A DNA stretch of 64,000 nucleotides from Clostridiales bacterium (lineage in GTDB: Bacteria; Bacillota; Clostridia; Oscillospirales; Oscillospiraceae), in NCBI GenBank assembly GCA_022775085.1, contig JALFJQ010000028.1, positions 62,001 to 126,000 of the forward strand. Reading direction: 5' to 3'. Below the pieces are notes generated by a model. It searched no databases. It was not told the DNA's origin and saw only the letters and a list, made by a program, of their open reading frames with translations. The stretch's first letter is position 1; each line of letters begins with the position of its first letter. This document shows, one piece after another, positions 17,329 to 18,599 of the stretch. The position numbers and the translations under genes were made by a program.

Positions 17329-18234
17329 ATGGATCTTCGCGGTCTGAATTACTTCTCGGTGGTTGCCGAGGAACTGAATTTTACCCGGGCAGCCCAGCGG
17401 CTGAACATGAGCCAGCCTCCCCTGAGCAACCAGATCCGGGCACTGGAAGAGGAGCTGGGCACTCCCCTGTTTATCCGGGGCAGCCGGAGCCTGCAGCTGA
17501 CGGAGGCGGGAAAGCTCCTTTACCGCCGGGCAGAGCAGCTGCTGGATCTGGCGGAGCGGGCCCGGGAGGAAATCGGCGCGCTGGCAATGGGCCTGTCCGG
17601 CACCCTGTGTCTTGGCAGCGTCGCCGGCCGGGCACCCTTTCTGGCTGCCCGCTGGCTGGCCGGCTTCCGGGAGGAATACCCTTTGGTGCGCTTTGAGATT
17701 GTCAACGGCAGCAGCGACGACATCATTGAACAGATCCAACGGGGCTTCATCGAACTGGGCATCATCGCCGCCCCCTACGACAGCGAGCATCTGGAGGGCA
17801 TTGTGGTAGGCGACGAGCCGTGGTGCGCCATTCTGTCCGACCGGCATCCTCTGTCGGACCGCCCGGAGGAACCGCTGCCCCTGAGAGCGCTGGCGGGACA
17901 GCCTCTGATCGTGCCCCACCGCCGCTCCCGGATTGACGAGATCCGCAGCTGGTTCCGTCTGGCCGGGGCGGAGCCGAACATCATCGGTGAACATTCCAAT
18001 TTTGTGGATGTGCTCGCCATTGCCCACGCCAATCTGGGCATCGGAATTTTTCCCCAAACCACGCCTCAGCCCATGCCCGGGATCGTATGCCGCCGGATCG
18101 TTGAGCCGTCCCGTCAGGCCCGGTATCTGCTGGTGCGCAAGCGCAGCGCCTCCCTGTCGGAGCTTTCCCAGACCTTCTGGGAATATGTTTCCGACGATCT
18201 GGAAGAGCACCCGCCGGAGCTGCTGGAAGAATAG
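17329..18234 (+). CDS. LysR-family transcriptional regulator
   Basis: DNA-binding regulator of 301 residues. The N-terminal winged HTH reads LNYFSVVAEELNFTRAAQRLNMSQPPLSNQIRALEEELGT in shape, i.e. the standard LysR recognition region at residues about 3-60; the rest is a periplasmic-binding-protein-like effector domain with HPLSDRPEEPLPL and LGIGIFP. GAAGGAGG precedes the ATG. It starts 23 bases after the flippase gene and is probably co-transcribed with it. Immediately downstream is a minus-strand unit encoding two copies of a 20-residue peptide, and a candidate LysR box lies at 18581-18599. The effector is unknown. Confidence 0.92.
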   Translation: MDLRGLNYFSVVAEELNFTRAAQRLNMSQPPLSNQIRALEEELGTPLFIRGSRSLQLTEAGKLLYRRAEQLLDLAERAREEIGALAMGLSGTLCLGSVAGRAPFLAARWLAGFREEYPLVRFEIVNGSSDDIIEQIQRGFIELGIIAAPYDSEHLEGIVVGDEPWCAILSDRHPLSDRPEEPLPLRALAGQPLIVPHRRSRIDEIRSWFRLAGAEPNIIGEHSNFVDVLAIAHANLGIGIFPQTTPQPMPGIVCRRIVEPSRQARYLLVRKRSASLSELSQTFWEYVSDDLEEHPPELLEE

Positions 18235-18241
18235 TGCAAAA

Positions 18242-18282
18242 ATAACCCCCGTCATCCGCTTGCCGCGCATGACGGGGGTTAT
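18242..18282. terminator. bidirectional terminator between LysR and the small-peptide genes
   Basis: ATAACCCCCGTCAT at 18242-18255 pairs perfectly with ATGACGGGGGTTAT at 18269-18282. On the minus strand the stem runs into TTATTTTT, so it should end the peptide transcript well; on the plus strand it follows LysR but lacks a T-run. Confidence 0.85.
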
Positions 18283-18326
18283 GAATTGTCCGTATTGACC
18301 ATATCGTTCCTCATTCCGCCCGCAGA

Positions 18327-18389
18327 TCAATGCTTGAAGGTCTCATAGTATTCTTCCAGCAGGGCTTCCAGCTTCTTCACGGTTTTCAT
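18327..18389 (-). CDS. 20-residue peptide, second tandem copy
   Basis: ATG at 18389, stop TGA at 18327-18329, with AAAGGAG nine bases upstream. The product is MKTVKKLEALLEEYYETFKH, identical to the copy at 18410-18472. The two genes differ at six codons (GCT/GCC, TTG/CTG, TAC/TAT, GAA/GAG, TTT/TTC, CAC/CAT), all silent. The peptide would form an amphipathic helix with basic N-terminus and acidic, aromatic C-terminal half; there is no signal peptide or cysteine. A strong terminator follows. I do not recognise the family. Confidence 0.75.
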   Translation of the reverse strand: MKTVKKLEALLEEYYETFKH

Positions 18390-18409
18390 GGTTCTGCTCC
18401 TTTCTCAAA

Positions 18410-18472
18410 TCAGTGCTTAAAGGTTTCGTAGTATTCTTCCAACAGAGCTTCCAGCTTCTTCACGGTTTTCAT
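18410..18472 (-). CDS. 20-residue peptide, first tandem copy
   Basis: ATG at 18472, stop at 18410-18412, with AAGGAGG about eight bases upstream and a short hairpin (CGGGC/GCCCG, 18494-18509) in the leader. The protein sequence equals that of the downstream copy, from which it is separated by 20 bases carrying its own ribosome site. Only silent differences between two adjacent copies argue that the peptide itself is selected. No clear promoter was found; TATTAT (18534-18539, minus strand) may be a -10. It lies between LysR and the GT26 fusion, divergent from the latter. Confidence 0.75.
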   Translation of the reverse strand: MKTVKKLEALLEEYYETFKH

Positions 18473-18580
18473 ATTGGTTCCTCCTTTTGCTGCCGGGCTT
18501 CGATGCCCGACGCTTTTTCTTTCTGGCATCATCATAATACAGGTATAGGAAAAAGTAAAATACCAAAATCAGAGGTGCTT

Positions 18581-18599
18581 CTATATCGTTTTGATATAG
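18581..18599. promoter_or_regulatory. candidate LysR-type operator
   Basis: A perfect interrupted palindrome, CTATATC-N5-GATATAG, which fits the T-N11-A pattern of LysR boxes. It lies between the peptide genes and the divergent promoter at 18664, 350 bases after the LysR gene. Binding is inferred only from pattern and position. Confidence 0.45.

Follow-up and report, generated by a model that had tools for sequence, protein, structure and literature searches.

What does a Clostridiales genome do with two adjacent genes for one and the same 20-residue peptide? In the 64-kb stretch of DNA analysed here (the window), two open reading frames (ORFs) on the minus strand, at 18410–18472 (ORF 1) and 18327–18389 (ORF 2), both translate to MKTVKKLEALLEEYYETFKH (20 residues), as a reading of the DNA by itself (the sequence-only reading) had claimed. 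Six nucleotides in six codons differ between the ORFs and all six changes are silent, again as claimed; in a simulation, an all-silent outcome for six random substitutions has p of approximately 4.5e-5. The separate ribosome sites described for the two ORFs can be read directly from the sequence, with the Shine–Dalgarno motif AGGAGG at 18480–18485 (minus strand) for ORF 1 and AGGAG at 18397–18401 (minus strand) for ORF 2. The terminator said to end the pair is also there (18237–18282, minus strand), consisting of a hairpin at 18242–18282 followed by a T-run (−33.3 kcal/mol, z = −7.4). The observation as a whole is thus confirmed, and the feature extends further than the sequence-only reading had it, since the operator/promoter (18531–18597) and a mini-ORF (18279–18302) were absent from that account. 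The mini-ORF, on the minus strand, encodes MVNTDNS (seven codons plus stop), has its own GAGG-type ribosome site, and overlaps the terminator stem; within the genus, it is conserved at six of the seven array loci, with the consensus M(T/V)(N/S)TDNS.

The peptide recurs in related genomes, where the sequence-only reading had suggested looking for it. When the genus (136 genomes) was searched with a peptide alignment, arrays turned up in 7 (G000, G009, G019, G493, G513, G515, and G516; G-numbers denote genomes, L-numbers loci or fetched stretches). Each of these 7 species has 2 to 3 copies, giving 17 ORFs in total. Within arrays, pS is 0.61 and pN 0.06 (pN/pS approximately 0.10; 13 non-independent pairs from the 17 ORFs), and between genomes pS is 0.69 and pN 0.10 (approximately 0.14; pairs of the 17 ORFs, likewise non-independent). 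The selection on the peptide that had been proposed is therefore borne out by a codon-based comparison.

Diverged relatives are found in other genera and in Lachnospiraceae-type metagenome-assembled genomes (MAGs), either linked or unlinked to a LysR gene. Run on a 400-genome sample of the family, the peptide model hit 27 genomes (E ≤ 0.3), and tandem tiny ORFs were accepted in 7 (G000, G347, G696, G764, G791 with two loci, G822, and G862, the last accepted partly because its promoter matched). For the other 20, tiny ORFs were listed around one match each, giving no such array. At the level of the order, a narrower model matched 59 of 394 genomes at E ≤ 1; the loci of the window's genome, G347, and G060 were examined, and the other 56 genomes were judged from match rows only, as partial matches mostly within long frames. 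Named relatives came from a scan of genome contigs with the LysR alignment (best 80 matches), and among the matches listed are Pseudoflavonifractor phocaeensis An858 (L088), whose array holds three copies, and an Oscillibacter sp. (L089). Also among the matches listed, a single tiny ORF divergent from LysR is present in L099, L100, L102, L103, L105, and L110, which are Lachnospiraceae, Oscillospiraceae, or Clostridia MAGs, and 10 of the best 24 LysR loci (L087–L110) have such a tiny ORF nearby, as judged by motif and reading. Among the genomes behind the other 14 loci, a wider peptide model located arrays away from LysR in two (G878 and G890); G877, behind one of the ten, has two further peptide loci. 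We recognised tiny ORFs by their motif and a ribosome site, and many of the genomes are draft MAGs of 70% to 100% completeness.

Across this set, the peptides are 16 to 27 residues long and share the consensus MKK..(I/L)..LL..YYx(T/S)F. They are amphipathic: for 16 of the 22 examined, the helical moment exceeds that of at least 95% of shuffled sequences. Their overall hydrophobicity is close to zero. The 20-mer has no Pfam or NCBIfam match at E 0.001, a weak test at such peptide length, and a literature search found none of three peptide strings of the family in the papers covered; a known peptide or RNA family was ruled out, the feature matching none. A further tiny ORF, MEQN(V/I)L(R/K)HVVGA..GNCQTS, lies 5′ of the YYxTF ORFs in G347 and G822 (L088, approximately 4841, minus strand; L083, approximately 6783, minus strand). 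A small RNA-like hairpin, GUGAUCCAUCC(A/G)UCA(C/U), was seen in L088, L083, L081, L082, L178, and L183.

The array of the window faces a LysR-type regulator (LTTR) gene on the plus strand (17329–18234), which converges on it. Its product has an N-terminal HTH_1 domain (PF00126) and a C-terminal LysR_substrate domain (PF03466), both above cut-off. In the genus, this LysR (E ≤ 1e-60) is present in the same 7 of 136 genomes as the arrays and in none else (Fisher p approximately 7e-12, kinship ignored), and linkage is kept, as expected from the earlier suggestion of a LysR link. Six of the genus arrays converge on the LysR gene, and that of G493 is on a separate contig; elsewhere, the two are divergent (G347, G822, G696, and G764) or co-directional (G791). 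In the family sample, the LysR (E ≤ 1e-80) occurs in 17 of 400 genomes, including all 7 with arrays (Fisher p 6e-11, kinship ignored). The polysaccharide locus, to which the feature had also been tied, did not hold up: four flanking proteins of that locus gave no tblastn hit at E ≤ 1e-10 in stretches fetched from six genomes (G009, G019, G513, G515, G516, and G493) to cover the surroundings of the array or LysR. A gene that we take to be CbiM-like adjoins the arrays of G009, G493, G513, and G515, and the G019 array is near a contig end. A polysaccharide function was rejected because the neighbours are not conserved, and to judge from these genomes the polysaccharide neighbourhood is incidental.

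The promoter gives a further context. Upstream of ORF 1 lies a putative LysR-type operator, the palindrome ATATC-AAAAC-GATAT (18583–18597, minus strand; E 1.6e-13 with the promoter model), followed by the conserved GTATTTTAC (18555–18563, minus strand; 34 nt from the operator start), which overlaps the −35 region, and by a predicted −10 hexamer, TATGAT (18531–18536, minus strand). The −35/−10 pair of the window is at 18559/18531; the region has two promoter-like pairs versus 0.8 expected, which is weak taken alone. LTTR recognition sites are expected near −65, and the dyad ATATC-N5-GATAT, of the T-N11-A type, is centred at approximately −66 when the start is inferred from the −10 hexamer; it fits a LysR activation site. 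All 26 array loci (23 genomes) have an ATAYC-N5-GRTAT-like dyad, 19 nt, and then GTATTT, in a fixed 34-nt register, with 3 to 5 of the 5 dyad pairs complementary. The promoter alignment is gapless over 70 columns, with ATA-N9-TAT and GTATTT invariant, whereas the first peptide start codon lies anywhere from 64 to 224 nt beyond GTATTT, depending on which of the 26 loci is considered. The operator played no part in choosing these loci, except partly for G862. The promoter is also kept where no LysR gene adjoins, namely in G493, G862, the second G791 locus, two G877 loci, and G890.

With a weight matrix trained on 22 of these 26 loci (the window's included), the site of the window scores 35.9, the next best in the 64 kb 10.6, and the best in each of five base shuffles 9.3 to 11.7. 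With stricter filters, a sequence-only promoter model (R1) was run on 80 genomes, 45 with the LysR and 35 from the genus without it. Sites at E ≤ 1e-4 were obtained in 42 of 45 LysR-bearing genomes versus 0 of 35 without LysR, and in 19 of 22 LysR-bearing genomes outside the training set; the misses among LysR-bearing genomes are G879, G889, and G891. Weak matches occur in 12 of the 35 controls (E 0.0038 to 0.097). The window's genome has one site at E ≤ 1e-4, that of the array, and the whole-genome R1 search found no second strong operator there. Several other candidates were discarded. Four weak matches in the window's genome (best E 8.7e-4, same model range 16–56) are repeat-like, with no convincing promoter in L297, and a 95% operator match elsewhere in that genome falls within a coding sequence, presumably of an SMC-like protein. 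The match G009:C132 (E 1.1e-4), flanked by a different LysR gene on one side and a MATE-like gene on the other, probably serves that other LysR, and G890:C4 (E 0.003) has no operator on inspection. A similar palindrome with shorter spacing is present in L293 (approximately 2602, minus strand), between another LysR gene and a MATE-like gene.

What else might this regulator control? In relatives, the operator lies directly 5′ of the gene for type III glutamine synthetase (GSIII) in L291, L288, and L298 (Pfam PF12437 and PF18318), in L094, L097, L098, L289, L290, L292, and L294 (tblastn with a GSIII query), and in L093, where the gene was named by its N-terminus. Gene labels not marked as checked were read from N-termini. 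Asparagine synthase follows GSIII in L288 (checked) and others. The operator is also directly 5′ of gltB, which is divergent, in L104 (checked) and L106, and of amtB in L286 (checked; E 1.9e-6) and, with a weaker operator match (E 0.001), in L295. Less certain targets are purA in L285 (checked), where the operator is approximately 400 nt upstream with terminator-looking sequence between, purA in L107, with a weak operator, and a branched-chain aminotransferase in L287 (checked; operator E 1.1e-5). In L284, the operator alone predicted a further YYxxF peptide, MKKIFVSIKEFLEQYYSSFAVTGTSAK (E 3.1e-7). Among the 10 family genomes with the LysR and no array found, 3 (G613, G747, and G738) have a site at GSIII, and 5 (G606, G662, G706, G744, and G779) have the operator, a short transcript, a terminator-like hairpin, a T-box (5/5, Rfam), and asnB (5/5, tblastn). 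In the remaining 2 (G353 and G722), the operator precedes a transcript without a recognised gene. In three genera of the family (g171, g234, and g250), the LTTR occurs together with an operator that adjoins or precedes enzyme genes, and the search there turned up no peptide.

Several of these loci have features of their own. In L170, L171, L172, L174, and L175, the order of operator, short transcript with a terminator-like hairpin, T-box, and asnB is divergent from LysR; asnB, lying beyond that hairpin, is a possible rather than an assured target of the operator. A conserved leader of approximately 60 nt, TTGAAATC..GCATTGAA..TCAATAC..TTT, separates the operator from gltB or amtB in L104, L106, L286, and L295 and could be a leaderless ORF of 18 to 20 codons or an RNA element. 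The AmtB of L286 (962–2728, minus strand) has a C-terminal PII-like domain that is below curated PII cut-offs.

In a LysR tree, the 45 regulators fall on one side of a branch versus four other LysR proteins (support 100/100). Carriers of arrays, GSIII, and gltB are clustered, with several switches between array and enzyme targets; the tree has a midpoint root and long branches, which limit claims about direction. Ten GSIII/amtB stretches, drawn from every one of the seven genus members with arrays and covering some of the GSIII copies, have no operator (best score 14.7, versus at least 21.0 for the arrays), and the whole-genome R1 search gave no further site near E 1e-4 there except G009:C132, so that the tie to GSIII and amtB comes from the relatives. 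GSIII is present in 124 of 136 genus genomes, including all 7 with arrays, and its presence therefore cannot discriminate. The amtB gene is found in 31 of 136, namely in 6 of 7 array genomes (it was not found in G516) versus 25 of 129 others (Fisher p 5e-4, kinship ignored). At the level of sequence, the regulatory link of the array to a nitrogen regulon is well supported. As to the earlier interpretation, selection and the LysR link stand and the polysaccharide link falls; its guesses at function (a signal, a regulator of a membrane enzyme, or a structural helix) had omitted the nitrogen-assimilation regulon to which the promoter points.

We lean towards the view that the feature is an LTTR-activated microprotein operon in an ammonium-assimilation regulon, with a peptide that acts after translation on nitrogen assimilation; put more generally, the peptide probably helps to control nitrogen metabolism under a nitrogen regulator. 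The LTTR would bind the palindrome at approximately −66 and activate a transcript of approximately 290 nt, encoding the 20-residue amphipathic peptide twice, with a ribosome site for each copy; we infer the translation of these copies, the binding and activation by the LTTR, and the response to nitrogen. The regulator is a member of a clade whose operator, in relatives, precedes GSIII with asparagine synthase, glutamate synthase, and AmtB. No strong site other than the array promoter was found in the window's genome, and the peptide would therefore be the main output of the LTTR there. Activation would occur when ammonium assimilation is needed, because the operator of relatives precedes assimilation genes and because GltC of Bacillus subtilis, a better-known LTTR of this pathway, responds to 2-oxoglutarate and glutamate (PMC6794564). 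The presence of more than one copy on a transcript suggests a need for amounts near those of an abundant protein, and the peptide would most likely act stoichiometrically on an ammonium-assimilation protein. Our guess at the target would be GSIII first, by analogy with IF7/IF17 and sP26, and AmtB-GlnK or AsnB next, and the sign of the effect, equally a guess, is likely positive because the co-regulated genes are assimilation genes. The target may also be another protein, the LTTR itself included.

Known systems resemble parts of this arrangement. GltC is described as a LysR-type activator of gltAB that binds boxes in the intergenic region of its divergent target (PMC6794564). Like it, the LTTR would serve nitrogen assimilation, and the relatives L104 and L106 have a divergent gltB behind the operator; however, the LysR of the window scores 125.5 bits against a GltC cut-off of 350 (NCBIfam NF053705), and its target is the peptide array rather than gltAB. 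In cyanobacteria, the glutamine synthetase inactivating factors IF7 and IF17 are small proteins controlled by a nitrogen regulator; they are reported to be 7 and 17 kDa, encoded by separate genes, and repressed under nitrogen limitation (PMC6316151). By contrast, the array peptides have 16 to 27 residues, are often tandem, and have an activator-type promoter, and the 20-mer shows no Pfam or NCBIfam match to the IF family, bearing in mind that this test is weak for a short peptide. The 23-residue sP26 of Methanosarcina mazei is reported to interact with glutamine synthetase, in an account that calls its effect small and states that no structure with sP26 was obtained (PMC11957540). Its length fits the array peptide, but sP26 is archaeal. 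The 61-residue sP36 of M. mazei is reported to control ammonium assimilation via AmtB1 and GlnK1 (PMC10714827); it is three times longer, its target is AmtB1, and the abstract mentions no tandem copies.

Could the RNA rather than the peptide be the main product, or an equal one? The transcript would then be an LTTR-driven small RNA that also encodes peptides in many species, like SgrS/SgrT, an RNA that also encodes a peptide. We consider this unlikely, yet not negligible. RNA may matter because 7 of the family's 10 array-free LysR genomes have, behind the operator, a transcript in which neither a peptide nor an enzyme gene was recognised: in G353, the promoter stands without a peptide, G722 likewise shows nothing recognised, and the five genomes of a further genus have an operator-driven short transcript, apparently terminated, ahead of the T-box and asnB. 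In another genus, six operator-driven transcripts keep the hairpin loop UCCAUCC(A/G), and two of them (G722 and G791-C6) have no peptide ORFs. However, the array loci of the window's genus did not yield that hairpin motif, the five short transcripts have no clear common sequence before the hairpin, and between ORF copies the silent sites are mostly changed (pS 0.61) with the residues kept.

Less likely again is a feedback peptide that would bind to the LTTR and adjust its activity, in the way that glutamate dehydrogenase acts on GltC in B. subtilis, where GltC is inhibited by the bound protein (PMC6794564). The perfect co-occurrence of array and LysR in the genus, their linkage in varied orientations, and the single strong operator in the window's genome would all suit such a loop, but a regulator whose sole output is its own inhibitor would have to act on something else as well, for which the window's genome offers no candidate site; the LTTRs of g171, g234, and g250, with their enzyme genes and no peptide found, also argue against it. 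We regard as very unlikely a secreted peptide, either a pheromone or an amphipathic peptide resembling phenol-soluble modulins. The peptide is short, often tandem, amphipathic, and without an evident leader, its gene often adjoins the regulator, and in G791 an ABC-transporter-like ATPase (read from DNA) is upstream of LysR. The PSM-alpha operon likewise has tandem leaderless amphipathic peptides, and in SHP-Rgg pairs a peptide gene lies beside its regulator. Yet the type of regulator and the regulon differ, the array regulator being LysR-type rather than an Rgg/TPR protein of the Rgg/SHP or RRNPP kind, and no exporter common to the arrays is seen among the ORF lists examined. The near-zero hydrophobicity and an operator that is that of the nitrogen regulon likewise speak against secretion.

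The microprotein operon in an ammonium-assimilation regulon is thus the reading that we carry forward. A broader version is more tentative, and we hold it possible but rather doubtful: in several lineages, the regulator would have swapped its output from the genes for glutamine synthetase, glutamate synthase, or AmtB to multi-copy peptides of approximately 20 residues that control ammonium assimilation by binding an enzyme or transporter, and these would form an unrecognised microprotein family, widespread in Clostridia and encoded, in some species, by an RNA with a second role as a small RNA.

To our knowledge, the control of ammonium assimilation via GSIII in anaerobic gut and rumen Clostridia has been little studied, and a literature search for a connection of LysR regulators with GSIII or with a regulon of this kind found no paper. 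A candidate regulator clade, its operator, the genes that it probably controls directly, and a family of peptides that routine annotation would miss for their shortness can now be named. The promoter signature is precise and finds further members, and a named isolate, P. phocaeensis An858, carries it. The locus would offer a testable case of a transcription factor that gives up enzyme genes as targets in favour of a microprotein with a post-translational role.
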